In this document: in pieces, positions 4,949-28,788 of the stretch
How the letters are laid out: the number at the start of each line of letters is the position of its first letter
Position numbering within the stretch: the stretch's first letter is position 1
Source: a virus
Length of the DNA: 28,788 nt
Virus record (IMG/VR): IMGVR_UViG_3300030101_000677
Span: 1-28,788 of that record
Direction: 5' to 3' (one strand)
Position numbers and translations under genes: made by a program
Notes under the pieces: generated by a model
Database searches by the model: none
What the model was told of the DNA's origin: nothing
The model's input: only the letters and a program-made list of their open reading frames with translations

Positions 4949-5213
4949 TATCTTTTCTCCACTTCTTATATCCTTCCGTCCAAGATTCTTTCTTTTCTTC
5001 TGTGTTTGAATAATCTCTTTCAATAATCATTTCTATAAAGTGTATTGCTTTCAATAAATCTTGTTTCTTTCCCTTATCACGATGTCTAATTATGTACTTA
5101 ATAGCACATCCCTCCGGGTATAACAACTCATTCTCAACTACAAACTTGCTTGGCTGTATGACATACTTTTGATAGTGACTCCCGCCGTGTTGCTTGTCCC
5201 ATACTTTACTCAT
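4938..5213 (-). CDS. DUF3310 family protein (91 aa)
   Basis: The small soluble protein carries the hallmark pattern of DUF3310: GSHYQKYVIQPSKFVVEN, then EGCAIKYIIRHRDKGKKQDLLKAIHFIEMIIE in residues about 11-68. The family is widespread in phages and is sometimes labelled nucleotide-kinase-like, but its biochemical role is not settled. The start overlaps the stop of the UvrD helicase as ATGA, and the stop lies 11 bases inside the start of the polymerase gene, so it sits tightly between two replication enzymes. The C-terminal 25 residues are rich in Lys, Glu and Trp and look less conserved. Membership of the family is clear; its function here is unknown. Confidence 0.88.
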   Translation of the reverse strand: MSKVWDKQHGGSHYQKYVIQPSKFVVENELLYPEGCAIKYIIRHRDKGKKQDLLKAIHFIEMIIERDYSNTEEKKESWTEGYKKWRKDNDI

Positions 5214-6649
5214 ATTATAAACTCCTTCTGTTTGTTTTTACATTTTACTAAATACAAATCCTGTATCGCTCTTGTTACACCAACATACCAAACGCGATAT
5301 TCTTCATCTTGTTTCCACACAGATTTGTTAGCCGCTCTAATAGTATTTATTGTTTGATTTAAAAATAAAACTACATTTGTGGCTTCACCGCCTTTTGCGC
5401 TGTGAATTGTGGAAACTTTTATTCTAGGTGATTTAGATAAATCCTCCCCATTAATAATCATCTTAAAAACATAATCAATTTTTTCTTGTGATACATTTGT
5501 GAAAGCGTCATACCATTTTAAAGATTTATTTGGTTTACCTTTTATTTTTTCAAGAAGTCTTTGTAGTTGCACTTCTGCTATCTCTTCGCCTTTTCTAAAT
5601 TTATCCCAGTTTAGAATGTCATCGTAAAATTTTTTAGAAATACTTTGTCCATCTTTAGTTTCAAAAAAGAAACCTTTGTTTTTTAAAATTAAAGGAATTT
5701 GTTTTAATAATGGATTCGTTCGTGCAAGTATTAACCAATCTCCCTCACCCATATTTATTTCTTTAAAATTATATACGTCTATCACCTGTCCTTTTAATTG
5801 CTTTGGAAGATAATCTTTTTCTAATCGATTATCTTTGACTCTAGATATTATGGATAAAGCTTTTTGTTGCACAGTTTTAGGAACTCTTACTGATTGTTTT
5901 AGTGGCATCTCTGTTGCCTCCCAGTCTATAAATGAGTCTACATCAGCCCCTGCCCAGCCAAATATTGCTTGATCATCATCTCCAGCTATCCATACATCAC
6001 AACCATTATCTTTCTCTATTTTTTCTATCATATCCCATTGTATTTTTGATAGATCCTGTGCTTCGTCTATAAAGATTACATCTAATTTATTTTGTATGCT
6101 GCCTTTTTCTAAAAATTTTTCTAACATATCTGTGAAATCTATAAGTTCGTAAACTTTTTTATATTGATTAATAGCAGTATCTATGGCCTCTAATTTATCT
6201 CTTTCTACTTTGCCTAAGTGTTCGTTTAAATCTAACTGCTCTAGTGGTTTGATTCTTTTTACTCTGGCTAAATTAATTAGTGTTAGATACTCACTATCTG
6301 ATGTGAATACACCATTCCAAGCATTTTTTTCGTAGAATGCATATTTAATTTGTATACCAGATGTTTCACCAATAACTTTATAATTTAATTCATCCATTAC
6401 ATTTTCTTCTTTTAATCCTAAATTATTAAATGCAAGCGAGTGTAAAGTTTGAAAGTATTTAATATCTTTTTTAGTTAAGTTTGGTCTTAACTCTAAAAAC
6501 CTATCTCTAGCTTCTTCCGACGCTTTTTTTGTAAATGCAAAATATCCTATTCTATCTAGTGATATACCAGTATCTAAATACAATTTAACTTTATCTAATA
6601 ATGTTTTAGTTTTTCCTGTGCCTGGTGGTCCTACAACTTTATATCTCAT
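5210..6649 (-). CDS. UvrD/PcrA-type superfamily 1A DNA helicase
   Basis: This is an ATP-dependent 3'-5' DNA helicase. Visible motifs are Walker A GPPGTGKT (residues 7-14), motif Ia FAFTKKASEEARDR (about 38-50), Walker B IDEAQD (194-199), motif III GDDDQAIFGW (223-232), motif V STIHSAKGGE near 410, and motif VI VWYVGVTRA near 455. At 479 aa it is shorter than bacterial UvrD (about 700 aa), so the 1B/2B accessory subdomains must be reduced. Motif IV reads QSVRVP, not the usual NYRSP. Its start overlaps the primase stop as TAATG and its stop overlaps DUF3310 as ATGA. With no DnaB-type helicase in view, it is the best candidate for unwinding at the phage fork. Confidence 0.95.
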   Translation of the reverse strand: MRYKVVGPPGTGKTKTLLDKVKLYLDTGISLDRIGYFAFTKKASEEARDRFLELRPNLTKKDIKYFQTLHSLAFNNLGLKEENVMDELNYKVIGETSGIQIKYAFYEKNAWNGVFTSDSEYLTLINLARVKRIKPLEQLDLNEHLGKVERDKLEAIDTAINQYKKVYELIDFTDMLEKFLEKGSIQNKLDVIFIDEAQDLSKIQWDMIEKIEKDNGCDVWIAGDDDQAIFGWAGADVDSFIDWEATEMPLKQSVRVPKTVQQKALSIISRVKDNRLEKDYLPKQLKGQVIDVYNFKEINMGEGDWLILARTNPLLKQIPLILKNKGFFFETKDGQSISKKFYDDILNWDKFRKGEEIAEVQLQRLLEKIKGKPNKSLKWYDAFTNVSQEKIDYVFKMIINGEDLSKSPRIKVSTIHSAKGGEATNVVLFLNQTINTIRAANKSVWKQDEEYRVWYVGVTRAIQDLYLVKCKNKQKEFII

Positions 6650-8217
6650 TAATAGTTATCTGCCTTTCTATCTGTTGGTTTATATTCAATCTTATCTACG
6701 TGCAGCTGTTCTAATCTACAAACCTTAATTGTTTTGCCATCTACTTTTAGTGAGTAATTAAATTCAACCTTAAATTTTTCTTTTAACTTCTGTCCTATTT
6801 TTTCTTTAGATATTTTCCAATCACTACCAAGGTGTGTTAAAAAAGATTGATACTGAAAGTAATGATAACCATTTTCTGTTAAACACGATCCTAATCTTAT
6901 CTGCATTCTTTTACTAGCTTGTGGACCGTTAACACAATACTGAAACAATTCGTTTTCTAATATGTCATCTGTGCTTGTGCCTTCTGGTGGTTTTATGTTT
7001 TGACAATTTTTTCTCCAGTCATTTAATTTAGCTCTCCAGTCTTTTGGTTTAATAGGTTCAAAATATATTCCTGTTTGTTCCCATATTAAATTTAAAACTT
7101 CTTTTTGTGTGGTCATTAATTTTAAATTAGGTATGACAACTTCTATCTTATCATCGTTAGGCATAACAACATTAAACCTATATTCTGGTTGTTCGTACTG
7201 TATGATTTGAAAATCTGTAATGTCTGGAAATACATTTATACTATCTGATTTTACACCGAACGGTCTTGAGTAGCAAAGACTACGCATACAATTATCTTTA
7301 ATAGGATCTTCATAACAAGTGTGTCCTGCTGTTTCTTTTGTCCAAGCATTTATTTTATTATCTAATTTTGCTTTGTCCCAAGGTTGTTGTAAATATTCGT
7401 AGTTTGCTTTTGATACAAAGTCAGCCCATTTATCTTTGTATTTCTTTTTTGCAAAGACCATATAGTTGTACATAAATCTATCTCTACCATCATCTAATTT
7501 AGATTTAGAACATAAAGCTAAACAAGGTGGTCCATCATTAAACTCTGGATTTGTGCCAACTAAAATATTTCTATGTGTTTCATCAACTAGAAAGTCTAGT
7601 TTTGTTTTATTTGTTTTTGATCTATTTGCAAAACCAACAAACTGTTCTAATGAAAGTTTATTGTTATCTTTATCTACTGCATATCTTTGTGTGTCACCAT
7701 TATTGTAATATGGTAAGTTAATAAAGTTACCTGGTTTTACGTTGCCTTTGTCATCTTTCTTTAGTTCTTTCTGCTTTGGAAAAATTTCTGTGGTAGGTTT
7801 TAATCCTAGAGGCAGAAGAAAAGACTTTAACGCCTCTATTAAATCAGTTGTTGGTATTGGTTCTTCTAAAAATAAATAACAATGTAGACCACCACTTTTT
7901 GATAGCAGTGGTACAATAGGAAGTTTATATTGTTGAAATAATGCTAAATACTTTTCTGTTTTAAAATCTTTGTAATTCTTTGGATCTATATCGATACAAC
8001 CAAATTGCGCTGTGCCATCAATCCTGCAAGGTTGTATACCTATTGATATTTTACCATTGATATGGTTTTCATAATCTTTTGCTGTAACAGGTCGACCAGA
8101 CCATTCGTAATCAGGTTTTACTTTATTTTTTTCAGCGTCTAAAGTCGCCTTGGACATATCGGCGATACCGAAGTCCCCATCATAACCAGAAAATAATTTT
8201 ATAAACTCATTTACCAT
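6649..8217 (-). CDS. Archaeo-eukaryotic (TOTE-like) primase
   Basis: This DNA primase should make the primers for Pol A. The AEP catalytic residues are visible: DxD at D76/D78 (GCIDIDPK), the SGGLH motif at 108-112 (KSGGLHCYLFL), and an acidic third site at E144 (TTEIFPKQ) followed by GNFINLPYYNN, the pattern I associate with primases of TOTE conflict systems and their phage relatives. A second region has conserved-looking cysteines at C232, C301, C310 and C315 (HTCYEDPIKDNC...C), probably a zinc or Fe-S site. The C-terminal ~100 residues look like a small winged-helix domain. There is no helicase domain, so unwinding is probably left to the adjacent UvrD gene. A GC-rich hairpin lies 16 bases upstream of the start. 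Confidence 0.88.
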   Translation of the reverse strand: MVNEFIKLFSGYDGDFGIADMSKATLDAEKNKVKPDYEWSGRPVTAKDYENHINGKISIGIQPCRIDGTAQFGCIDIDPKNYKDFKTEKYLALFQQYKLPIVPLLSKSGGLHCYLFLEEPIPTTDLIEALKSFLLPLGLKPTTEIFPKQKELKKDDKGNVKPGNFINLPYYNNGDTQRYAVDKDNNKLSLEQFVGFANRSKTNKTKLDFLVDETHRNILVGTNPEFNDGPPCLALCSKSKLDDGRDRFMYNYMVFAKKKYKDKWADFVSKANYEYLQQPWDKAKLDNKINAWTKETAGHTCYEDPIKDNCMRSLCYSRPFGVKSDSINVFPDITDFQIIQYEQPEYRFNVVMPNDDKIEVVIPNLKLMTTQKEVLNLIWEQTGIYFEPIKPKDWRAKLNDWRKNCQNIKPPEGTSTDDILENELFQYCVNGPQASKRMQIRLGSCLTENGYHYFQYQSFLTHLGSDWKISKEKIGQKLKEKFKVEFNYSLKVDGKTIKVCRLEQLHVDKIEYKPTDRKADNY

Positions 8218-11873: not shown

Positions 11874-12079
11874 TTTATAAACAGATTAAAAAGACCCACA
11901 AGCGTTAATATTGTTGTGAACGCACCACCAATAATCCAATAGATTACAGTGTCTGTTTTCTTTTCTAGTTTTCCTACGTCTTGATGTAAATGATCTATCT
12001 GTCTTTTAAACCCTTGCACATATCCATACAAAGATACTAAGTGTTCGCCAGTTGTTTTTGGTGGTTTACCGTTTGGCAT
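11870..12079 (-). CDS. Small protein with C-terminal membrane helix (69 aa)
   Basis: The N-terminal ~42 residues are polar and helical (GEHLVSLYGYVQGFKRQIDH, QDVGKLEKKTD), then comes one hydrophobic segment at about 46-67 (VIYWIIGGAFTTILTLVGLF) ending almost at the C-terminus. Cytoplasmic coiled coil plus C-terminal anchor is the layout of XhlA/haemolysin-type holin accessory proteins, so a lysis function is reasonable but unproven; no endolysin is in view. AAGGAG lies about 12 bases upstream, a rather long spacing. The start overlaps the 494 aa gene by 14 bases and the stop overlaps the convergent nuclease-like gene by four bases, leaving no room for a terminator between them. Confidence 0.72.
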   Translation of the reverse strand: MPNGKPPKTTGEHLVSLYGYVQGFKRQIDHLHQDVGKLEKKTDTVIYWIIGGAFTTILTLVGLFNLFIN

Positions 12080-13550
12080 TTTTAATAAAAACTCCTTTTA
12101 TAAAAAATTGTATTGTTCTATAGACAAAGGTCCAAGCAGTTTTTAAAGTTCGTTTTTTACCTGTTCCAAATGCAACATAATCTTTAAATTCTTGATAATG
12201 ATTTTTAGCTTTACCTTCATCAATTGCTTTTTGACCATAGTATTTATAACCTCTTCTCACTGCCTCACCCCACCAAGTTCTATGTAAATTTCTAACACAC
12301 CAACGAACAGCCTCTCTTTTTGTTTGTGGTGTAAACGCTCCTGAGTTAACTGCGTGAGTTGCAATAACACAGCTGCTGCCCCCACTTGACGACCCACCAC
12401 TATCACCTTGATAATCAGAGGTTCCTAAATTAGGGTCCGGCGCAGCTGCAGCTGATGCTTGCTCATCGGATGTTCCTTCATCAGAATCTGATGGATCTGC
12501 TGTAATATTAGATATTGATTCTTGAGCTAATCCTGCTTCTACGTCTGCTTCATTAACAGTGTCTTGAAATCCTGAACCTGATTCTGTTTCTCCTTGATCA
12601 AAAATTTGTTCTGCAGGAGTTTGTACTTGTGGAGTATCTATTTCACCAATATCATCTAACGTTTGACCCTCACCTAAAGTTAAAGCTGTGTTTATTGGAT
12701 CTGTAGTTATTACAGTTGAAGGAGTGTCTTGTATGTTTGCAAATTCATTTTCTGCTGCATCTACACCTGGATCTCCACCTTCAAATAATCCCGTGTCTGG
12801 ATCCATAGTTAATTGTTCTGATACAGATTCATCTGGAGTTAAAGCTCCAACAATAGCTTTTCCTACTTGAACTGTAGGTGATAAACCTACAATATCTGTT
12901 AATGTTGTTGCTGGTTCAGGCACTGGAGCTAAACCATAAGCATTTGCATATTGTTGATCAACAAGCAGTTGCTCTTCATTATCTAAAAATTCATATTCAC
13001 TAGGTGAAGTATTATAAGTTCTTGCATAAAATTCTTGCGGTGTTTCTATAACTCCTTGATTAATTAAATCTGTCGATGTTCCTGATAGATCTAAAGCAGG
13101 AACAGTTGTGGGTGCATCTGTGTAGTCTACCTGATCTATTGTTGTAGGTGTTGTAAGATTACCTAATGTTCCTATTGTGCCGGGTGTATCCACTGCACCT
13201 GCATCTTGAAAAGTCGTATCTAATGTTGGATCTGTTACTGGATCTGTAATGACCCCTGTTGCCTGACTCTGGTTACCTACATTTACTAACGTGTCTACAG
13301 CTCCAGGTATCTGTGCTGTGTCTGTTGTTGTGGGTGTGTCTAACATAGGTAAACCACCACTATATAATTCATATAAATCTGAAATGTAATCATAAGACGT
13401 TGGATCAAATTGAACACCTTGAAAGTCAGGAGCTTGTGCCAATAATTGTGGGCTTGTATCTGTAGCTGTTCGTAAACCAGTTACATCAATTTGTGGGTCT
13501 ACTTGTGTTGGGTCTATAATTAATGATCGTAGTCCTGTGTTTTCTGCCAT
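12066..13550 (-). CDS. Virion-associated protein with Thr/Asp-rich arm and conserved C-terminal domain
   Basis: Residues about 1-390 are acidic, low-complexity and rich in Thr, Asp, Pro and Gln, with no predicted globular fold; a Ser/Gly linker (GDSGGSSSGGSS) follows. Residues 394-494 are a distinct basic, aromatic domain: CVIATHAVNSGAF, C418 (RWCVRNLH), TWWGEAVRRGYKYYG, then DYVAFGTGKKRTLKTAW and a hydrophobic-basic tail. From memory this C-terminal domain recurs in marine phage genomes near ejection proteins, but I know no function. The long acidic N-terminus could be a flexible or DNA-mimicking arm in the virion. It is last of the structural run, with its start overlapping the 1331 aa stop as TAATG. 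Confidence 0.78.
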   Translation of the reverse strand: MAENTGLRSLIIDPTQVDPQIDVTGLRTATDTSPQLLAQAPDFQGVQFDPTSYDYISDLYELYSGGLPMLDTPTTTDTAQIPGAVDTLVNVGNQSQATGVITDPVTDPTLDTTFQDAGAVDTPGTIGTLGNLTTPTTIDQVDYTDAPTTVPALDLSGTSTDLINQGVIETPQEFYARTYNTSPSEYEFLDNEEQLLVDQQYANAYGLAPVPEPATTLTDIVGLSPTVQVGKAIVGALTPDESVSEQLTMDPDTGLFEGGDPGVDAAENEFANIQDTPSTVITTDPINTALTLGEGQTLDDIGEIDTPQVQTPAEQIFDQGETESGSGFQDTVNEADVEAGLAQESISNITADPSDSDEGTSDEQASAAAAPDPNLGTSDYQGDSGGSSSGGSSCVIATHAVNSGAFTPQTKREAVRWCVRNLHRTWWGEAVRRGYKYYGQKAIDEGKAKNHYQEFKDYVAFGTGKKRTLKTAWTFVYRTIQFFIKGVFIKNAKR

Positions 13551-16500
13551 TATGTCAATCCTCTTTGTCTAAGTCTTATTTGTTGTTCTTGTGGTGATAA
13601 TAAAGCTTGTTCAGTTGGTGTCAATCCTGTTTGTGTAACAGGTATATTATTTGTTGCTAGTGCCTGGCTGCTAACTTGTGGTGTCACTGGTAAAGCTGAC
13701 TGTCCTTGTGGATTTGTATCTGGTAAAAAGTCTTCTACGTTTAGATAGAAATCATCGTATAAAGTTAATTGGTCCATAGCAGATTGTATGGCTCTTAGCG
13801 TAGGTTCTGCTTCTAGATAAACGTTTGGTATTCCAGCCCTTTTAGCGTTTTCATCAAACACATCCTCTAATCTTTGAGATGGAAAGAATGGATCAAAAAC
13901 ACCAGAGGATAATTCATCATACTCAGATTTTAATCCACGCTTATCGAATATTTCATACATTTTATCTGGTGCCATTCCAATCGTATCTGCATTGTTCATT
14001 GTGTTTAACATTTTTTTTCTAGCATTAAATATTTGTTTGTTAGCTACAAAATATCTTCTAATAACATCGGATGCAGTTCTCATTTCTGTAACATCAATTT
14101 CACCTGTAAATAATCTTCTAGAGTCTGACACGGCTTTTTGATATTCAAATAATTTAAACGCCATAGATTTTTCTGGATTTACTTTAATACCTCTGAAACC
14201 AAATATACCTGCAATTTCATAGGGTATTTCATATAACTCTGAACCTCTGCCTGGTTCACCTGTAAACGCTTTTTTAGTACGTTGAAATGGTTGAGTAGTG
14301 GGCATTAACGTTTTACCAAGATGTTGCATAATAATAGCTATCTTTTCTGGTCCCGGTGTTTGCTCTGTGTATAATTGTTTGCCCTCTCTTGTTCTACCTT
14401 CTCTGCCCCAAATATCCATAAACGCCTCTGTATAAATAGACTCTGATATAAAAGGTGATGCAGTTTCACCAGCGGCCTCTGCTATACCTTGTACAAAACC
14501 TTTAATTAAAACTTCATCATCCATTATACCTTCTTGTATATTTCTTAATACAGATTGAAATGGTCTTGTTAAGGTATCGTAAACATTATTTTTTGACCAG
14601 TCGATATAAAATAAATCATCTGTTTCTGGATCTCTAAAATATATTTTTTGTGAACTCTTTGCCCAAGGTGCAACAAAATCATTTGCTGCATCTGCTTCTT
14701 CATTTGATACACCAAAGATTGCTTGTGATCCTTTTATTAATCCATATGGTATTGCACCAGCAGCCATTGTCATACCTGCAAGTCTTTTTACACCGAGTGC
14801 TCTAAATCCAGGTGTTTTTAAATCTTTTAATCCTTGTTCAAATATACCATAACCTGTTCTAAATACTTCAGATGGCCAAGACATAAAGTTACCAAAAGGT
14901 GATACCCTAGCTGCTCTTACAAATTCACCTACCTTTGCATAATTAGGAACAGTATCTTGCACAATTCTAGCTACCTCTCTTTTTAATGCAGGAGAGTCAA
15001 CACCCATATTTTTAACACCAGCAGCTGCATATTTTTCTGCCCTTTGAATCAGTTGAACTTCATAGTTTACAATTTTCCAAATATCATCCTCTGCAACATA
15101 TAAATCTTGCATAACTTTTCCTGCTTTTTTAACACCTCGACTTACTCTTTTACCTAAAGTATTTAACATTGGTCTTAACACACTGTCTGTTGCAATATTA
15201 CCCTCTCCAAATCTTATATCTTTCATAAGGTTTCTAAGATCTCCAAGCCGTACGTTTGTATTTACAACACCTAATTCTAAATATTCTCTATATTTTTCTT
15301 GAGATAGTGGCTTTCTAGGTCCACCCACTTGAACCATACCAAAAGCATTACTCATTGCCTTTGCAAATACTTTTGGATTTGAAAATACAACACCGTTTGC
15401 TAAAGAAAATGCACTAGAGCTTAAGAAGTTTCTTATATGTGTAGGCACAGATAAAATTGTTTTTGCATATTGTGCACCAGCTTTTGGTGTTAGTAATAAA
15501 TTACGATAAGCCATAGAGAATGTTTTACCTAATAAACCACCAGAGTCCCCACGCATAAAGTTTTGCATTTGTGATACATTAGTGAAACCCTCAGCTATAT
15601 CTTTTGTTGTGTAGGTATTAGATAATCTATTTATTAGCACACCATCCTTAAAATATTCTTGTACATAATCATCCATCTTTACAATGTCTGCGTTTGGACC
15701 AAATGCTCTTTTAGCAGCCAATGGTGTACTATGAAAAAAACCTCGTTGTCCTACAGGTGTATTTGCTGTAGCTTTTGCTTTCATAGCGTCATCAACATCT
15801 AATATCTCATCAAACAATTGATTTTTTCTAGCAACAACAGATAATCTATTCATACCCTCAAAGATTGAGTGTCTAACATCCTCAATCTCACCAAATAATT
15901 CTCTAAAAGCTTTACTACCTTTACCAATTACTTTTATTTCTTTTTTACCACCGGGTAATTTTTTCTCTATAGTTTGTGCGAATGTTTTTAATGCAAATGG
16001 ATCTTTTGCAGATGTAGATAAATCTTGATAAGCAAAAGTTGGTAAAGTATCTTTACCAGGATTCATCTTTCTAACACCTTTTATAATATCGTTTACCATA
16101 CCCTCAGCTTCAAGGTCTGTAATTGGATTTTTATTTTTTCTTGCATATCTCATAAATATTCTTTTAACTCTATCAATAGCGTCTTGTGTTGGTGTGTATT
16201 TAGAAAAGAAACCTGATTCAGCATTTTCAAATATTTCAAAAGTATTACCAATATAATTTTTAACACGATTACCCATAATCTTTCTTAAATCTCTTGTAAC
16301 ACCTGCCGGTAAATCTGCTTTAGCACCAGGTCCTTGTGCTGTAATTTCTAAAAGAGCGTTAAACTCACCACGTGTTTTACCTAATGATTTAAAAATGTTA
16401 TTAGTAACTTCATTACCCTTAACAGCTCCTAGTCGCTTATTTACAGTTCTCTTAACTTTTTGTATAATATTACGATCAACAGGTTTAGTTAAATCACCTG

Positions 16501-17545
16501 TAAACAAAGCATCGTCTAATATTTTTAAAAAACTTTTTCTTTCCTCTGCAGTAGACGCATTAAACACTTTTCTAAACTCAGGAAAAACTTTATCAACTTC
16601 TTTGTCTATTCTAGCTACTTGTTCTTCTGCAAAATTAGTATCTCTCATACCTCTACCTTTTTGCAACTGTTTAGCTTCTGCTACTTCTTGTGGTTTTGCT
16701 CCTCTAAATCTAAAAGCACTAGCAAGTTTATCTAACGCTTTTTCCATTTGAGAATTACTGTACGCTAACTCTTTACCTCTTTTAGCTAATGTCTTTGCAC
16801 CGAGACCCACACCATAAACAAACGGTGTTAAAAATACAGACTCACTACCAAATCTTAATCTGTTTGCTAATTTTCTAGCTGCATCGTCTGATGGATCAGA
16901 TCTAACATCTCTATCTAATTCTGTTGGTCCACCTTGAAATAAATCACCAAACGTTCCTATGTTTTCTACATCAGCAACTAATGTTTCTCCTGCAGCTCCT
17001 CCTGCAACAATAGCTGCAAACCTTTGTGTGCCAGATAATTTATTTAAATCTTTTGTTTTTTGAATTCCTTTCTTAAGATTCGCTGCTTTAAAATTTACAT
17101 ACTTACCAGCTTTTTTAGCTCGCACCGCTTTACTAGCTAATGTAGTTGCAAGTTTTGCACCTGCTCCACCAGGTATACCTATTTGTACTAATGCCTCTGT
17201 AAGTTTACCTACAGCTCTTGATTGTGCAGTTTCTTCAAATATATTTATTTTATCAAAAAACATTTCCACATCTGCAGCAAGATCTGTGCCTGCTCCAAGA
17301 TCAATAAGTTCTGCACCAAGAGATACAACACCCTCACCTACTTTAATAATGCCTGACCCAATTCCTGCAGCAAACGCAACTGCACCGCTAACTTCATTAT
17401 TATCTTCAGCTTCGGGTACAACATCTTCCGTGTCTATACCGTAACTTCTATTAACGTCTTCTAAATTTTTTTGTTGATTTTGTTTTCTGTTAAGCTCTTC
17501 TGAGTCTATTAGAGCGCCTGTTTGAGGATCTATGACTAAAGGCAT
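13550..17545 (-). CDS. Large internal virion (ejection) protein, 1331 aa
   Basis: This is the largest gene in the window. Near the N-terminus (about residues 50-85) is a Gly/Ala-rich hydrophobic segment (SGAVAFAAGIGSGIIKVGEG) and further small hydrophobic patches occur near 180 and 235, typical of proteins that insert in membranes during DNA ejection. The bulk is helical, basic and soluble. The extreme C-terminus ends LTPTEQALLSPQEQQIRLRQ plus a few residues, a tail I recall from other marine phages. Size and position after the nozzle and other internal proteins match the T7 gp16/gp15 slot, so a role in the ejection channel is inferred. I see no transglycosylase motif. Confidence 0.78.
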   Translation of the reverse strand: MPLVIDPQTGALIDSEELNRKQNQQKNLEDVNRSYGIDTEDVVPEAEDNNEVSGAVAFAAGIGSGIIKVGEGVVSLGAELIDLGAGTDLAADVEMFFDKINIFEETAQSRAVGKLTEALVQIGIPGGAGAKLATTLASKAVRAKKAGKYVNFKAANLKKGIQKTKDLNKLSGTQRFAAIVAGGAAGETLVADVENIGTFGDLFQGGPTELDRDVRSDPSDDAARKLANRLRFGSESVFLTPFVYGVGLGAKTLAKRGKELAYSNSQMEKALDKLASAFRFRGAKPQEVAEAKQLQKGRGMRDTNFAEEQVARIDKEVDKVFPEFRKVFNASTAEERKSFLKILDDALFTGDLTKPVDRNIIQKVKRTVNKRLGAVKGNEVTNNIFKSLGKTRGEFNALLEITAQGPGAKADLPAGVTRDLRKIMGNRVKNYIGNTFEIFENAESGFFSKYTPTQDAIDRVKRIFMRYARKNKNPITDLEAEGMVNDIIKGVRKMNPGKDTLPTFAYQDLSTSAKDPFALKTFAQTIEKKLPGGKKEIKVIGKGSKAFRELFGEIEDVRHSIFEGMNRLSVVARKNQLFDEILDVDDAMKAKATANTPVGQRGFFHSTPLAAKRAFGPNADIVKMDDYVQEYFKDGVLINRLSNTYTTKDIAEGFTNVSQMQNFMRGDSGGLLGKTFSMAYRNLLLTPKAGAQYAKTILSVPTHIRNFLSSSAFSLANGVVFSNPKVFAKAMSNAFGMVQVGGPRKPLSQEKYREYLELGVVNTNVRLGDLRNLMKDIRFGEGNIATDSVLRPMLNTLGKRVSRGVKKAGKVMQDLYVAEDDIWKIVNYEVQLIQRAEKYAAAGVKNMGVDSPALKREVARIVQDTVPNYAKVGEFVRAARVSPFGNFMSWPSEVFRTGYGIFEQGLKDLKTPGFRALGVKRLAGMTMAAGAIPYGLIKGSQAIFGVSNEEADAANDFVAPWAKSSQKIYFRDPETDDLFYIDWSKNNVYDTLTRPFQSVLRNIQEGIMDDEVLIKGFVQGIAEAAGETASPFISESIYTEAFMDIWGREGRTREGKQLYTEQTPGPEKIAIIMQHLGKTLMPTTQPFQRTKKAFTGEPGRGSELYEIPYEIAGIFGFRGIKVNPEKSMAFKLFEYQKAVSDSRRLFTGEIDVTEMRTASDVIRRYFVANKQIFNARKKMLNTMNNADTIGMAPDKMYEIFDKRGLKSEYDELSSGVFDPFFPSQRLEDVFDENAKRAGIPNVYLEAEPTLRAIQSAMDQLTLYDDFYLNVEDFLPDTNPQGQSALPVTPQVSSQALATNNIPVTQTGLTPTEQALLSPQEQQIRLRQRGLT

Positions 17546-21722: not shown

Positions 21723-21846
21723 GTTTTTTAACTCCTTTAATTATACCTTTGTTTTTAGAGGCATAAAAAACTTGTTCACCTCTTTTTTTACCATATTGTT
21801 TTTTCATAGACTTCATTATCTTTTTACCTTTTTTATTTAATGGCAT
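21715..21846 (-). CDS. 43-residue highly basic protein
   Basis: The gene runs from ATG at 21846-21844 to TAG at 21717-21715. The product begins MPLNKKGKKIMKSMKKQYGK and continues through GEQVFYASKNKG to a basic end. About 16 of 43 residues are Lys or Arg, with very few acidic ones. I recall this sequence type as recurrent after the nozzle gene in marine phages. A small DNA- or RNA-binding, or virion-packaged basic, protein is plausible. The start forms TAATG with the nozzle stop, with GGGAGAAGATA upstream, and the stop overlaps the next gene by 8 bases. Translation is well supported and the function is unknown. Confidence 0.8.
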   Translation of the reverse strand: MPLNKKGKKIMKSMKKQYGKKRGEQVFYASKNKGIIKGVKKRG

Positions 21847-24002
21847 TATCTTCTCCCGTCTGGTTGATAGTCTATTCTAAAAGTTCCTAGTTTCCAGAAT
21901 TGACTTGTACTTGTGTTTTCTATTTTTAAAGATATTTCTCTAGCTCTTGCACGTGTATCAATTTTTTGTGTGCCACTAGATATTGTAAATGGTCCTAACG
22001 TAGAACTCGCTGCTGTGTCATTTGGAAAGTCTCTTAAATTTAATGTAACTCTTGCATCACCTGTTTGTGCTAAAAAGTCTGGTATGACTCTTCTTATTTT
22101 CATCATAAACTCACCGTCATTCCCTGGGCCACTTATACCCCTTGGACCAATATCAAAACTACCAGATTCTATGTTTGCAGCTATGGCTGATGTTTGACCA
22201 CCTTTAACTTGATTTAATCCAGTTTCGTGTTCGTAATATGTAGATGCGCCATCAGTATTACCGTGTACATAATTAACATCGGTATCTGCTGTCTCAGCAC
22301 TTTCATCATATTCTGTTGCGTGTGGTTTACCAAATATTGCAGAGTCCTCCCACGCTGTTCTCGCTAGTGTGCCTGTAGTCCATACAGGTCTTTCTGGACT
22401 TGAATCTAGATAATTATATGCAACCATTCTATTAACAACACCTGAACCTGAGTTTGGATAGAACCACATTACTTCACCAAACAAGTTATTTAATCCTGCA
22501 TTAATATGTTGCTTTGGTGTTGTGTTAATATCATCAAAAACGTGGTCTTCAACTAAACACGGTAGTGATTCTAGTTTACCTGTGTATCTAAAGAAACCAT
22601 TTTCTGACATCCAGTACGCTGTACCATCTACCTCAACGGCTGCGTTCTGACCAATCAGTCCACAGTTTGTTCCTACTTGTTGAAATGAAAATGTAAATGG
22701 TGGACCGACAAAACGCATAATAAATAATGCTGTGTCTGTCCAAATGTAAATAGCATCACGACCTCTAATAGCTCCTACAAGTTTAGAACCATCAGCTAAT
22801 CTTTGTGTACCCGCTGTATTAGTCGCTGTAGGTGAATAAGTATTAATATCCTCTTGAGAAGAGAATCTAATGAACATAGGGTCTTGTGTAGACTTAGTCC
22901 CTATAGTTGTTTCTGTTCCAAAAAATATTAAGTGTCTATCTGGTGTAGACACTAAACTAAATGCAGATGCTGTTGGTGCACCTGTTATAATCGTTGCTCT
23001 AGTATTATTAGCTCCAATAGGATTAGAGTCCCACTCAAAACTCTCACCACCATTTATAGTTGCAATAAGTTTGTTACCTAAATTATCTAGTGACCATAAA
23101 CCTGGTGCTGTTACAATATCTCCAGATGGTGCAGCATTCCAAGCAAAAAAGTTTGATGCATCTGTTACTGTTGCACCCGATGAATGTGAAGCAGCTGTTG
23201 TTCCAGAAGCTCCTCGTGTTAAACCAGATAATGTTCCGCTACTATTACCTGTGTATGTAATTAATTCTGTTCCAATTAATACTGTACCTGAAGATGGAAA
23301 AGAAGAAGAACTTGCCATTGTTAAACTTGTTACCGATGAATTGATGTCCGATGATAATGTAGATGTAAATTGTCCTGCTTGTTGTCCACCCCAAGATCCC
23401 AAACTCCAACCTGTTGATGCAACCTCTACTGCTGGTCCCACTGGATAGTAATGTTGAACTCGAATACCACCAGATGTTGAAGCACCTGATCCTGACTCGT
23501 TTGATTCCATTTCTATTGTTAGTGTTGTATCTGTTGGTATGGATGTCACCATAAATTTTTTATCTGTAAAGTCTCCAGAACCAAAATCAGAACCAGTGAT
23601 AGCTGTAAAAGTGTCTAATAAAATAATATCAAACTTATTTATGTTGTGTGCAGATGCAAAGGTGAGTGTTACAGTCTTTGATCCGTTAGTTGTAGAGAAA
23701 GCATTTGATAAAGATGTTGTAGATTTAATAGGGTGTATATCATAAAATATACCTCCAGAGTATGCGTACAAAATTCTGTTTGTTCCTAAAATAGCGTACT
23801 TGATACCTGATGTATTAACAAAGTGATGAATAGCTGTCGCTCGACCTGTTATAGCAACTGAACCTAGTTGTGACCAACCACCTATTTTTTCTGGTGTGCC
23901 ATATCTAAATCTAACATTATCACCATTAACCCATTGGCTTTCACCACCGGTAGCAGTGACCTGTTTATTAAATCCAGGCGCAAATTTAACTTTTTGCAGC
24001 AT
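21846..24002 (-). CDS. Tail nozzle / DNA-stabilisation protein (718 aa)
   Basis: The N-terminus (LQKVKFAPGFNKQVTATGGE, then QWVNGDNVRFRYGTPEKIGG) and C-terminus (REISLKIENTSTSQFWKLGT, ending DYQPDGRR) are the hallmarks of the podovirus tail-tube family that includes P22 gp10 (phage stabilisation) and T7 gp12-like nozzles in marine phages. The body is beta-rich with Thr, Ser and Gly throughout, as expected for a propeller-type nozzle. It should close the head-tail channel and connect to fibres and ejection proteins. The start at 24002 has AGGA about 7 bases upstream. The stop overlaps the 43 aa gene. A long antisense frame inside it is a shadow. This gene is the main evidence for podovirus morphology. 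Confidence 0.87.
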   Translation of the reverse strand: MLQKVKFAPGFNKQVTATGGESQWVNGDNVRFRYGTPEKIGGWSQLGSVAITGRATAIHHFVNTSGIKYAILGTNRILYAYSGGIFYDIHPIKSTTSLSNAFSTTNGSKTVTLTFASAHNINKFDIILLDTFTAITGSDFGSGDFTDKKFMVTSIPTDTTLTIEMESNESGSGASTSGGIRVQHYYPVGPAVEVASTGWSLGSWGGQQAGQFTSTLSSDINSSVTSLTMASSSSFPSSGTVLIGTELITYTGNSSGTLSGLTRGASGTTAASHSSGATVTDASNFFAWNAAPSGDIVTAPGLWSLDNLGNKLIATINGGESFEWDSNPIGANNTRATIITGAPTASAFSLVSTPDRHLIFFGTETTIGTKSTQDPMFIRFSSQEDINTYSPTATNTAGTQRLADGSKLVGAIRGRDAIYIWTDTALFIMRFVGPPFTFSFQQVGTNCGLIGQNAAVEVDGTAYWMSENGFFRYTGKLESLPCLVEDHVFDDINTTPKQHINAGLNNLFGEVMWFYPNSGSGVVNRMVAYNYLDSSPERPVWTTGTLARTAWEDSAIFGKPHATEYDESAETADTDVNYVHGNTDGASTYYEHETGLNQVKGGQTSAIAANIESGSFDIGPRGISGPGNDGEFMMKIRRVIPDFLAQTGDARVTLNLRDFPNDTAASSTLGPFTISSGTQKIDTRARAREISLKIENTSTSQFWKLGTFRIDYQPDGRR

Positions 24003-24358: not shown

Positions 24359-24961
24359 CTAATTTACCCCATACAAATCGATTGTTCCTGAATCTATGTT
24401 TCCACTAGACATCGCAAATTGTACTCCATCTATTGCAGCTGTAACATTACAATATCCAGCTACAAATTGCTGAATACTTGCATTTGAATTGTGTGTATTA
24501 TTTCCATTATATAAAAAATGTTTTACAAAAGTTGTATTACTTGGATCAAATAAATGTAAAACTCCACTAATACACTGATCAGAATCATCCCCAACACCAC
24601 TATGTAACATTTGTGCTCCAGTGGACTGTGCTAAATCTCTACCTGATTCATAATTAACACTACCATTACTTGCTGATTCATCATTTGATGCTTGAAAAAA
24701 AGTAGTCGTTTTTGTTGCGTCAAAAGCAGAACTGCCATCTCTAAAATTAACTGTAAAATTTACATTGTCACTTGCTGGATGTATATTATTAAATATGAAA
24801 ATATATTCTTTATAAGTACTATCTATACCTGATGTAATATCTATAGTTGATGATGAACTAGCAGTTGATCTTGATATAAAAACTAAATTACCAAGTCCTG
24901 TTGTGGTTCCAACTGCTGTTGCATCTTTTAATGCTCTATTATTTAAAGTTATTATACTCAT
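24359..24961 (-). CDS. Fibre-domain paralogue 6 (200 aa)
   Basis: This is the last of six tandem paralogues. After a short unique head (MSIITLNNRALKDATAVGTT) it carries the shared core: SGIDSTYKEYIFIFNNIHPA (from about residue 44), DGSSAFDATKTTTFF, RDLAQSTGAQ, SGVLHLFDPSNTTFVKHFLY and VTAAIDGVQFAMSSGNIDSG ending IDLYGVN. The pattern is all-beta and matches the C-terminal domain of the tail-fibre-like protein encoded at 28094. There is no signal peptide or membrane segment. The start forms TAATG with the preceding paralogue's stop. The most variable parts are the loops after DLAQST and before the final strand. A host-recognition or fibre-tip role is inferred. Confidence 0.82.
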   Translation of the reverse strand: MSIITLNNRALKDATAVGTTTGLGNLVFISRSTASSSSTIDITSGIDSTYKEYIFIFNNIHPASDNVNFTVNFRDGSSAFDATKTTTFFQASNDESASNGSVNYESGRDLAQSTGAQMLHSGVGDDSDQCISGVLHLFDPSNTTFVKHFLYNGNNTHNSNASIQQFVAGYCNVTAAIDGVQFAMSSGNIDSGTIDLYGVN

Positions 24962-25566
24962 TATGATTTACTTAATCCATACATTTTAATAACACCAGAA
25001 TCTATTGTTCCAGCAGATGCAGAAAATTCTACTCCATCAATAGCTGCAGTTACATTAGCATAACCAGCAGTATAAGTAACTGTTGAATTATCTCCACTAT
25101 CCATATTCTGAGTTCTTGCCGTAAAATGTTTAACAAACGTAGTCGAACTTGGTGAAAATAAAAACATATCACCTGAAAGAGAACCATCATTTTGATTTCC
25201 TGTCACTAAATTTAAAAAATGCCCCCCTGTGCTTTGTGCTAAATCTCTATCAGAGTCATAGCTAAATGAATTTGTACCAGCTTCAGTATTTCTAGCAAAA
25301 AAATGAGTTGTAGTTTTTGTAGCATCAAAAGAAGAACCACCATCTCTAAATTTTAAAAAAAATGCTTCATTGGCATTAGAAAAATGTAAATTAAAAAATT
25401 TAAATAAATAAGTATCATAAGTGCTATCGATCCCTGAAGTAAAACTTGAAGAGGATACACCTGAAGATATAGTATTCGTAGTAATTAAATTCATATCACC
25501 ACTTGTTATACTACCTAAAGCAGTTACGTTTAATATAGATCTATTATTATATTTAACTAACGCCAT
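24961..25566 (-). CDS. Fibre-domain paralogue 5 (201 aa)
   Basis: The head is short (MALVKYNNRSILNVTALGSI) and the core shows SGIDSTYDTYLFKFFNLHFS, DGGSSFDATKTTTHFFARN, RDLAQSTGGHF, SGDMFLFSPSSTTFVKHFTA and VTAAIDGVEFSASAGTIDSG ending IKMYGLSKS. It belongs to the short-head subgroup with paralogues 4 and 6. In the STYDTY, DLAQST and FSPSSTTFVKHF segments it is closer to paralogue 2 than to its neighbours, which argues against simple end-to-end duplication. The start overlaps the upstream paralogue by 14 bases, the only non-TAATG junction among copies 1 to 6. Function is inferred from homology to the fibre terminus. Confidence 0.82.
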   Translation of the reverse strand: MALVKYNNRSILNVTALGSITSGDMNLITTNTISSGVSSSSFTSGIDSTYDTYLFKFFNLHFSNANEAFFLKFRDGGSSFDATKTTTHFFARNTEAGTNSFSYDSDRDLAQSTGGHFLNLVTGNQNDGSLSGDMFLFSPSSTTFVKHFTARTQNMDSGDNSTVTYTAGYANVTAAIDGVEFSASAGTIDSGVIKMYGLSKS

Positions 25567-26158
25567 ATAATTTTATAACTCCACTTTCAATATTTCCTGA
25601 ATCAAACTTAAATTGTATAGCATCAATAGCACTTGTTGTATTTAAATAACCAGCAACATAATTTGAATTAACATAAGCATTAGCAACTAAAGTTCCCGTA
25701 GCAATAAAGTGTTTGACAAATGTAGTATTAGATGGGTCAAATAAGTGAAAAGTTCCGCTACCACTATCATCAGCATTTGCTGTTATACTACTTAAAACTC
25801 TTTGAAAGTCAGTTGATTGTGCTAAATCTTTACCACCCTCATAACTTAAATTTGCTGTTGAATCTGCTTCATTATGGTCTGTTTGAAAAAATGATGAAGT
25901 AAGAGTAACTCCATAAGAACTTCCACCATCTGTGCTACCTTGAAAACTAAAATGTCTGCCAGTTCCGCCATCAGGGTGAATATTATAAAACTTAAAAATA
26001 TATTCTTTATAAGTAGAATCTATACCACTGGTAAAAGATATTGTTGAACTACTACTAGCTGTAGATGTAGATATTAAATTTAAAGCACCACCACTAATAG
26101 CTGCAGGTATCGAAGTTATAGCTGATAAAGAATTATTGTTACAAAAATTTAAAGCCAT
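25553..26158 (-). CDS. Fibre-domain paralogue 4 (201 aa)
   Basis: The head (MALNFCNNNSLSAITSIPAA) has a Cys not seen in the other heads. The core runs SGIDSTYKEYIFKFYNIHPD, DGGSSYGVTLTSSFFQTDHN, KDLAQSTDFQRVLSS, SGTFHLFDPSNTTFVKHFIA, then TTSAIDAIQFKFDSGNIESG ending IKLYGVS. It differs in several loops from the copies on either side, notably the stretch between HP and DGG (GGTGRHFSFQGST). It is co-directional and overlaps the stop of copy 3 as TAATG. As with the others, a beta-sandwich fibre-tip or adhesin domain is the best guess. Confidence 0.82.
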   Translation of the reverse strand: MALNFCNNNSLSAITSIPAAISGGALNLISTSTASSSSTISFTSGIDSTYKEYIFKFYNIHPDGGTGRHFSFQGSTDGGSSYGVTLTSSFFQTDHNEADSTANLSYEGGKDLAQSTDFQRVLSSITANADDSGSGTFHLFDPSNTTFVKHFIATGTLVANAYVNSNYVAGYLNTTSAIDAIQFKFDSGNIESGVIKLYGVS

Positions 26159-26793
26159 TATCTAACTCCATACATCGTTATGGTTCCGCTATCAATATTG
26201 CCTGATGACATTTTAAATTGAATTCCTGTAATAGCAGACGTTGTATTAAAAAAACCAGCACCAAATACATCTGTTGCTCTGTCAAATATTGTCATAGTTC
26301 TTGAAATATAATGCTTAACAAATGTTGTAGATGATGGTTCAAATAAGTGCATATGTCCTGAAATACTTTGATCGTTATCTGAACCTGTGCTTTCATTTAA
26401 TCTTTGAAAAGCAGTTCCTTGTGCTTGGTCGTCATCAGCACTATAACCTAATGCTCTAGAACTATTATCTTCTTGATTTCTAGCAACAAAATAAGTGTTT
26501 GTAAGTGTAGTATTAAAATTACTTCCATCAGTTGTTGTTTGAAAAACTAATTTAGTATCATCTGTTTGTGGATGAAGATTATTGAAAAAAAACATATACT
26601 CTTTATAAGTGCTATCAATACCTGATGTAAACGATAATGATGCACTTGAGCTTGCAGTTGTAGTAGCTATCTTAACTAAATTACCTCCAGCATCTGCTGT
26701 CTCTAAACCATTAGCACTTGAATTAAATCTTATGGCTTTACTAGCGGCTGGCGTAACATTTATACTATTAAATTTTAATTTATTAAGAGCCAT
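26158..26793 (-). CDS. Fibre-domain paralogue 3 (211 aa)
   Basis: This copy has the long head type: MALNKLKFNSINVTPAASKA followed by IRFNSSANGLETADAGGNLV, clearly related to the heads of copies 1 and 2. The core shows SGIDSTYKEYMFFFNNLHPQ, DGSNFNTTLTNTYFVARNQE, then DDQAQGTAFQRLN where the other copies have DLAQST, SGHMHLFEPSSTTFVKHYIS, and TTSAITGIQFKMSSGNIDSG ending ITMYGVR. The altered DQAQGT is the most distinct change in the family. Both junctions are TAATG. The role is inferred to be fibre-tip or receptor binding. Confidence 0.82.
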   Translation of the reverse strand: MALNKLKFNSINVTPAASKAIRFNSSANGLETADAGGNLVKIATTTASSSASLSFTSGIDSTYKEYMFFFNNLHPQTDDTKLVFQTTTDGSNFNTTLTNTYFVARNQEDNSSRALGYSADDDQAQGTAFQRLNESTGSDNDQSISGHMHLFEPSSTTFVKHYISRTMTIFDRATDVFGAGFFNTTSAITGIQFKMSSGNIDSGTITMYGVR

Positions 26794-27434
26794 TATTTTG
26801 TAACTCCATACATTTTAATTGTGCCTGCATCTATTGTGCCTGCAGAAAAAGTAAATCTTATACCATCGATGGCAGCCGTAACATTTGCATATCCAGCATT
26901 AAAGTGATTCATTGCATAATCATAACCATCTGTGGTATTTATATGAGCTAGAAAATGTTTTACAAATGTTGTTGAACTAGGACTAAATAAATACATTGTG
27001 CAACAAAGAGATTCATCATTAGCATTACCTGTATCACCTAAACGTTTTTGACTTGTGCTTTGTTCTAAATCTTGTCCAGCATTATAAGTTAAACCTGTAG
27101 CATTGGCAGCTTCATTGTGAGCACCATAAAATGATGTACTTGTTATTGTTGCATCAAAGTTACTACCACCATCTCTAAGATTAAAACCAAAAATAGCGTG
27201 ATCATTAGATGGATGAATATCAAAACACTTAAATACATAAGTATCATAGGTGCTATCTATACCTGATGTAATATCAACTTGACTTACAGATGATGAAACA
27301 GTGCTAGTTGAAATTAATGTTAAAGCACCTGGTGCTGCCGTATCAAATCCATTAGCACTTGCATTAAAACCTAAACCTGTGCTTGCAACAGTTGTTAAAT
27401 CAAAACTATTAAAATTAAATTTAGTAAGTGCCAT
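26793..27434 (-). CDS. Fibre-domain paralogue 2 (213 aa)
   Basis: The long head (MALTKFNFNSFDLTTVASTG, then GFNASANGFDTAAPGALTL) matches copies 1 and 3. The core has SGIDSTYDTYVFKCFDIHPS, DGGSNFDATITSTSFYGAHN, QDLEQSTSQKRLGDTGNAND, CCTMYLFSPSSTTFVKHFLA, then VTAAIDGIRFTFSAGTIDAG ending IKMYGVTK. Three Cys residues (KCF and a CC pair replacing the usual SG) set it apart. It begins as TAATG with copy 1 and ends as TAATG with copy 3. A virion surface or receptor-binding role is inferred. Confidence 0.82.
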   Translation of the reverse strand: MALTKFNFNSFDLTTVASTGLGFNASANGFDTAAPGALTLISTSTVSSSVSQVDITSGIDSTYDTYVFKCFDIHPSNDHAIFGFNLRDGGSNFDATITSTSFYGAHNEAANATGLTYNAGQDLEQSTSQKRLGDTGNANDESLCCTMYLFSPSSTTFVKHFLAHINTTDGYDYAMNHFNAGYANVTAAIDGIRFTFSAGTIDAGTIKMYGVTK

Positions 27435-28084
27435 TATAAAATCCCATATAATTTAAATGTTCCAGACTGTATATTACCAGATGACATTGTAAACTGAATA
27501 GCATTTATAGCAGATGTTGTATTACCATACCCACCAACAAAACATTGTGCTGAAGCATCACCGTTAGCTGAATATGTTTGTGTAATTGCATTATAATGTT
27601 TAACAAATGTTGTACCTGATGGATTGAATAGACGAACTTCTCCTGATAAACTTTGGTCGTTATCACCCCCAATTGTTAATCCAGCAATGGGCTGCACACC
27701 TGTAGATTGTCCTAAATCTGGACCCGTAGCATTATCTAAACTAGCAGAGCCACCTCCTTCTTCGTGTGATGCTCTAAAAAAATGACTTGTTTTTGTAACA
27801 TTATAATTACTTCCGCCATCAGCTGATAAATTCATTCTAAAGTCAACGTTATCAGTGCCTGGATGAATGTTAATCATTTTAATTACATACTCTTTGTAAG
27901 TAGTATCTATTCCACTAGTTATTGAAATTGCTGAATCATCACTTGCTGTGGTTGTAGATATGAGTTGTAAATTACCCCCAACATCATCCGCAGCTAACCC
28001 ATTGTTACTAGAGTTAAATGTTATAAACTTACTCGCTGTTGGAGTAACGTTGAAGCTATTAAAGTTTGCTTTAGATATTGCCAC
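27434..28084 (-). CDS. Fibre-domain paralogue 1, GTG start (216 aa)
   Basis: This is the first free-standing copy. The start codon is GTG (28084-28082) with AGGAG six bases upstream, nine bases after the fibre stop. The long head is MAISKANFNSFNVTPTASKF followed by ITFNSSNNGLAADDVGGNLQ. The core shows SGIDTTYKEYVIKMINIHPG, DGGSNYNVTKTSHFFRASHE, PDLGQSTGVQPIAG, SGEVRLFNPSGTTFVKHYNA, then TTSAINAIQFTMSSGNIQSG ending FKLYGIL. Of the six, its YKEYVIKMINIHPGTDNV segment is the most readily aligned with the fibre's own domain (STYRDYHLTWSNVHCATDNV), consistent with an early copy. It probably acts at the fibre tip. Confidence 0.83.
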   Translation of the reverse strand: MAISKANFNSFNVTPTASKFITFNSSNNGLAADDVGGNLQLISTTTASDDSAISITSGIDTTYKEYVIKMINIHPGTDNVDFRMNLSADGGSNYNVTKTSHFFRASHEEGGGSASLDNATGPDLGQSTGVQPIAGLTIGGDNDQSLSGEVRLFNPSGTTFVKHYNAITQTYSANGDASAQCFVGGYGNTTSAINAIQFTMSSGNIQSGTFKLYGIL

Positions 28085-28093
28085 ATTCTACTC

Positions 28094-28788
28094 CTATGTG
28101 ATTCCGTAAATTTTAAATACACCTGATGCAATGTTACCTGACGTAAACTGAAATTTAAATGCATTATGTGCTGCTACTTTTTTATAAACACCACCAAGCA
28201 AAAACATTGTAGCAGCCTGATCAGTTTTAGTAGATTGAACTTGACCAATAAATTGTTTAAAATTATCTGTTCCTAATATATTAAAAAAAGTTACTTCTCC
28301 TGAAGTATTTTCACCAGCGGCATTACCCATATTAGCAGGAGTAATTTCAAATTGAGTACCACTATCGTTATTATTTGTTAAAATAGTGGAGTTGTCTGAA
28401 GTCAGACCAAAACTATTTCTTTGATGATCACTGTCTGATTTAAAACTTGAACCGTTATCATCTGAAATTAAAAGATCAAGTCTGACATTATCTGTTGCAC
28501 AGTGAACATTTGACCAAGTAAGATGATAATCTCTGTAAGTAGAAGTAACGTAGGTATTATTAAATGTAACATTAGCTGAGTCACTTGCAGTAACTGTATG
28601 TAATAAAGTTTTATGTGGAGTAGACTTTAAATGACTAAAATCTATTCTTTTTAATACACCAGCATCCGATAATAATAATTCATCAGTATCTGCAGGAGTT
28701 TCTGCTAAAGCAGTCTGCCCTGAGATTACATCTGCATTAAATTTAGCAGCTGTTACTGAGTTAGCAACTAGTTTTGCAGTTGATATAC
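28094..28788 (-). CDS. Tail fibre-like protein, C-terminal part (5' end outside window)
   Basis: The frame is open from the window edge (first full codon 28786-28784) to TAG at 28096-28094, 230 residues; an internal Met at 28330 is not the start. The first ~50 residues contain the linker ALAETPADTDELLLSDAG followed by VLKRIDFSHLKS, which I recognise as typical of long tail-fibre proteins in marine phages. Residues about 55-230 form a terminal domain homologous to the six downstream genes: STYRDYHLTWSNVHCATDNV, SDDNGSSFKSDSDHQRNSFG, SGEVTFFNILGTDNFKQFIG and FKFQFTSGNIASGVFKIYG. It lacks the TTFVKH phrase of the paralogues, having TDNFKQ instead. Host recognition is the expected role. Confidence 0.8.
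   Translation of the reverse strand, partial: ISTAKLVANSVTAAKFNADVISGQTALAETPADTDELLLSDAGVLKRIDFSHLKSTPHKTLLHTVTASDSANVTFNNTYVTSTYRDYHLTWSNVHCATDNVRLDLLISDDNGSSFKSDSDHQRNSFGLTSDNSTILTNNNDSGTQFEITPANMGNAAGENTSGEVTFFNILGTDNFKQFIGQVQSTKTDQAATMFLLGGVYKKVAAHNAFKFQFTSGNIASGVFKIYGIT

Follow-up and report, generated by a model that had tools for sequence, protein, structure and literature searches.

The fibres and spikes of phages are, as a rule, homotrimers. Complement C1q is a heterotrimer of paralogous chains: A, B and C are coded by neighbouring genes and each carries a beta-sandwich head. Among viruses, the closest precedent for the locus described below is the tripartite tail of the virophage DSLV2 (Dishui Lake virophage 2). 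According to the available text of that report, three consecutive genes specify proteins of about 200 aa with a T4 gp37-like fold and a collar domain (PF07484), which form a heterotrimer, as judged by co-purification, and are proposed to bind the receptor (PMC12724248). In the neck fibre of Anabaena phage A-1(L), the available text describes three adjacent gene products, gp80, gp81 and gp82, that were modelled as separate trimers forming beads (PMC10966104).

The window analyzed here is the whole of an incomplete 28.8-kb virus contig (IMGVR_UViG_3300030101_000677). Six consecutive open reading frames on its minus strand (28084 to 24359, Table 1), overlapping their neighbours by 1, 1, 1, 14 and 1 nt, code for proteins that can be aligned with each other along their length and that all match the PHROG 14820 profile over the whole domain (6/6, E values from 4e-77 to 3e-56). 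The overlaps suggest that translation of the genes is coupled. The fibre-like protein upstream of the array matches the same profile at its C-terminus (E 4e-20); a full-length version of 328 aa is present in L012, a contig 98% identical to the window in that region, and the N-terminus of the protein matches a PHROG tail fibre protein.

Table 1. Features of the array region in the window.
Feature	Position	Strand	Remarks
Gene A1	27434..28084	-	216 aa, GTG start, long head; triplet 1, class A
Gene B1	26793..27434	-	213 aa, long head; triplet 1, class B
Gene C1	26158..26793	-	211 aa, long head; triplet 1, class C
Gene A2 (copy 4)	25553..26158	-	201 aa, short head; triplet 2, class A; AF2 pLDDT 90.6
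Gene B2	24961..25566	-	201 aa, short head; triplet 2, class B; 14-nt overlap with A2
Gene C2	24359..24961	-	200 aa, short head; triplet 2, class C
A2 exchangeable hypervariable body, about residues 59-193	25580..25984	-	recurs behind head A1 in other phages
Fibre-like protein, C-terminal part with the same domain	28094..28786	-	cut by contig end
Tail-fibre assembly chaperone PF16778, 95 aa	24019..24306	-	Pfam; downstream of array

A first-pass annotation of this DNA had described six tandem, free-standing copies of a fibre-terminal domain that also ends the fibre-like protein upstream, and the reading frames, the alignment and the common profile bear this out. The array proper occupies 24359-28084; the remainder of the interval assigned to it, 28094-28788, belongs to the cut fibre-like protein. 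The annotation was also right to separate long-headed copies 1-3 from short-headed copies 4-6 and to see copy 5 as similar to copy 2, both being of class B. What it overlooked is that the triplet is the unit: the six genes are two triplets of the single family PHROG 14820, A1-B1-C1 and A2-B2-C2, the head type is common within a triplet and different between triplets, and unannotated trios exist in SAR11 phage isolates. It had also raised a decoration module; decoration of the capsid is not favoured, since the array is flanked by fibre proteins on one side and by a tail-fibre assembly chaperone on the other.

Other reading frames of the window, all on the minus strand, were also noted. Residues 203-285, approximately, of a 718-aa virion protein (PHROG 3287, 21846-24002) match families of tail fibres and baseplates, which gives the impression of a tail protein that has acquired an inserted fibre-like domain. 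Two proteins of 1331 aa (13550-17545) and 494 aa (12066-13550) adjoin structural genes and gave no match in Pfam or PHROG. A protein with an AEP-TOTE primase domain (6649-8217) is coded beside a UvrD-like helicase. In L012, the plus strand upstream of the array (4406-6361) codes for a fibre-like protein of 651 aa in which TSTAAELNILDGV is repeated in tandem.

The array, which the first-pass annotation took to be worth keeping, recurs in metagenomic relatives. The family and, in addition, copies 4, 5 and 6 served as queries against IMG/VR, and 244 loci were found, representing 212 distinct arrays; free-standing copies were counted, and a run was considered complete when it was not cut by a contig end. 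The complete runs consisted of 82 of three genes, 9 of six, 1 of five, 1 of seven and 4 lone remote relatives, counts to which no formal probability was attached because the loci were collected through their similarity and the arrays share ancestry. Complete runs of two or of four genes did not occur among the 212 distinct arrays. The run of seven (L157) is really one of six, since one gene is split into pieces of 145 and 78 aa. The only genuine exception to the threes is the five-gene array of L154 (745-3747), which has two B and two C heads of one type and whose third gene is a chimera of a C head and an A tail; either recombination or faulty assembly may have produced it. Matches in bacterial genome assemblies were also triplets (3/3), two of the three assemblies being Pelagibacter.

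The N-terminal heads are of about six unrelated types, which were assigned from sequence patterns or, when no pattern fitted, by visual inspection. The type was identical across A, B and C in 159 of 160 triplets, the sole mixed triplet being that of L214 (long, long, short). In genomes with two or three triplets, the head types differed between triplets at all 30 loci; none of 20,000 shuffles reached 30/30, the best giving 26/30. Three loci (L129, L225 and L245) have three triplets, nine genes each, with heads in the order long, STY, short. The simplest meaning of these patterns would be that the heads gather the right three chains or take the chains to their own site. The duplication proposed by the first-pass annotation is retained in a different form: whole triplets, not single copies, were duplicated, with new heads.

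One ancient triplication, handed down by descent to genes that function separately and form no complex together, could also have left genes in threes; most triplets have a short or a long head and possibly go back to a single ancestor. Such a history leaves unexplained that, for each of the unrelated head types, the change affected the three genes jointly, and that three persists even though frequent recombination could alter the copy number. We regard it as highly improbable.

The proteins group by their position in the triplet. In core columns 1-45, the nearest neighbour in another locus occupied the same position as the protein itself, be it A, B or C, in 456 of 480 cases, and in 403/480 when neighbours were restricted to other head families; these classes hold for the main families, the link of the rare MGxITR and STY head families to them not being clear-cut. 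The corresponding value was 387/480 for the last 27 core columns and 240/480 for the core middle, chance being one third. The class-telling residues (copy 4 numbering: 28, 30-32; 52, 54, 56, 58; 136, 138; 194, 196, 200, 201), which include the polar E52, K56, H138 and K196, alternate on four strands with the near-invariant Y53, F55, F57; G135, L137, L139; and G193, I195, L197. We infer that they form an exposed face which would meet the neighbouring chain. Covariation between subunits of one triplet, with mean z of 1.4-6.1 for class residues and 0.1-0.3 for bodies, fits a conserved joint with independent faces, a scaffold signal that co-inheritance could also produce.

The AF2 model of copy 4, for which rows from annotated records were left out of the input, is confident (Table 1) and all-beta, with a beta-sandwich. 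Among viral structures the fold matches that of phage tail-fibre tips, tail fibre proteins being part of the hits. Comparison with the PDB by Foldseek gave weak hits, to galectins with E near 1e-3 and TM of 0.34-0.45, and also to jelly-rolls; the T4 gp37 tip (2XGF) was not in the list of 50 PDB matches. When the family was searched by sequence in Pfam and PDB, no meaningful match emerged. In the model of the fibre-like protein, the C-terminal domain repeats the strand order of copy 4.

The main rival to a heterotrimer is a fixed three-piece fibre in which A, B and C form separate homotrimers, stacked or side by side like beads on a string. The gp80/gp81/gp82 neck fibre, as the available text presents it, is a precedent for such an assembly (PMC10966104), which would explain three distinct position classes and a fixed gene order. 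A single head type per triplet, however, is a need of parallel chains and not of stacked beads, and the bodies move among A, B and C while the class ends remain (see below). We therefore consider separate homotrimers unlikely.

Each gene is composed of a head, position-specific residues and a hypervariable body. The heads of L012 and of the window are alike position by position, but heads 1-3 of L012 carry bodies 4-6 of the window, with 99.5-100% DNA identity, sharp edges and highly similar flanks. L020/L147 has bodies 1-3 in common with the window and not bodies 4-6. Body 4 was found behind head 1 in L012, L017/L203 and L095 (94.7-99.5% identity). Since this combination recurs in three other contigs and isolates have intact trios, assembly chimeras are an unlikely source of the shuffling. 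A strict exchange of whole three-body sets was rejected, as the bodies of L095 are mixed from several sets.

Near-identical body pairs among the classified genes identified 19 within-class moves between long and short heads and 10 moves between classes. In all 10 between-class moves the class-specific residues on both sides were kept, the identity starting at about N-x-H-P and stopping at about S-G-N-I-D-S-G. The mosaic similarity reported at first pass is real, and its breakpoints are sharp. Only one near-identical pair was found inside one array; the traceable exchange is thus between phages, and probably took place during co-infection.

The synonymous sites at the breakpoints showed no special conservation and no sign of DNA-level recombination sites, and the array has only weak inverted repeats, of a kind that chance would give. 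Among those proteins of this incomplete contig that were scanned with Pfam, there was no reverse transcriptase, site-specific invertase or other inversion or switching element, and hence no indication of a diversity-generating retroelement or an invertible tail-fibre cassette. The lack of such enzymes among the scanned proteins, together with the unconserved synonymous sites, makes ordinary homologous recombination the likely means of body shuffling.

Hypervariable, exchanged bodies, and the same domain in the fibre-like protein, would also be expected of an archive of alternative tips, that is, of spare receptor-binding modules used singly or as donors for the fibre protein. An archive does not require threes with matched heads, and the genes overlap as co-translated ones would; in the cassette pairs, the partners of fibre bodies were always other fibre genes or genes that are cut off, and the window proteins scanned with Pfam included neither invertase nor reverse transcriptase. 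We regard an archive, too, as highly improbable, and both an archive and a frozen triplication explain less than a heterotrimer does. Of the two possibilities offered at first pass, hetero-oligomeric tips gain support, and alternative tips do not, the genes overlapping and looking co-translated and no switching element having been found among the scanned proteins.

A tblastn search of 50,697 phage records gave strong relatives only in the Candidatus Pelagibacter phages HTVC010P, HTVC019P and HTVC034P, and a single, weaker relative in phage Lederberg. Each of the three pelagiphages has exactly three tandem copies, one triplet against the two of the window; the proteins belong to PHROG 14820, like those of the window, and are annotated just as hypothetical proteins. 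Only HTVC019P of the three is placed in Autographiviridae; the module is thus common to unlike SAR11 phages. Judged by these relatives, the window phage, a marine virus, probably infects SAR11, the most abundant bacteria of the ocean. No account of SAR11 phage trios, and no virion proteomics, was found in the open-access literature, most subscription papers lying outside the search. Marine phages, including those of SAR11, have under-recruiting islands rich in host-recognition genes; the available text of that study does not name PHROG 14820 (PMC3909814).

We propose, with a probability of roughly 70%, that each triplet gives rise to a 1:1:1 heterotrimer with which a SAR11 phage binds its receptor, as a tip. 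Chains A, B and C would join via their beta-sandwich domains, at the class-specific faces. The head, common to one triplet and different between triplets, would ensure that the right three chains pair and dock at their own site on a virion that would incorporate them, and the window phage would have two tips, each three-faced and different from the other. Receptor contacts would lie in the hypervariable bodies; co-infecting phages would swap these by homologous recombination, while heads and class faces stay. The sequences themselves show the grouping in threes, the position classes, the matching of heads and the exchange of bodies between fixed ends. A wider generalization seems to us evenly balanced between true and false: each virion of a SAR11 phage would bear between one and three different heterotrimeric adhesins, as many as nine co-translated paralogues would be sorted into the right trios by a head code, and every tip would have three receptor-binding faces, shuffled independently, to provide a combinatorial host range.

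If the proposal is true, heterotrimeric tips would be a normal strategy among SAR11 phages, by way of a widespread module that occurs almost only in threes, its heads matched and its faces class-specific, and a phage could hold several receptor faces at once, renewing each alone. The array would represent a host-range locus readable directly from metagenomes, and the triplets would illustrate how mispairing between paralogous chains is prevented in nature.

The animal C1q has collagen stalks, and no C1q or galectin Pfam match was obtained in the members of the present family that were scanned. The A-1(L) neck fibre resembles the triplets in consisting of three adjacent gene products; matched heads and position classes are not reported in the available text of that work (PMC10966104). 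DSLV2 is a virophage, whereas the family described here belongs to SAR11 tailed phages, has a different fold and matched PF07484 in 0 of 127 members; the DSLV2 heterotrimer was established biochemically and the one proposed here is deduced from genes. Several triplets per genome, head codes and body shuffling are likewise not described in the available text on DSLV2 (PMC12724248). With DSLV2 the window and its relatives have in common three consecutive homologous genes, whose products group by position across viruses, as they do here in the N-terminal scaffold of the main head families (456/480).
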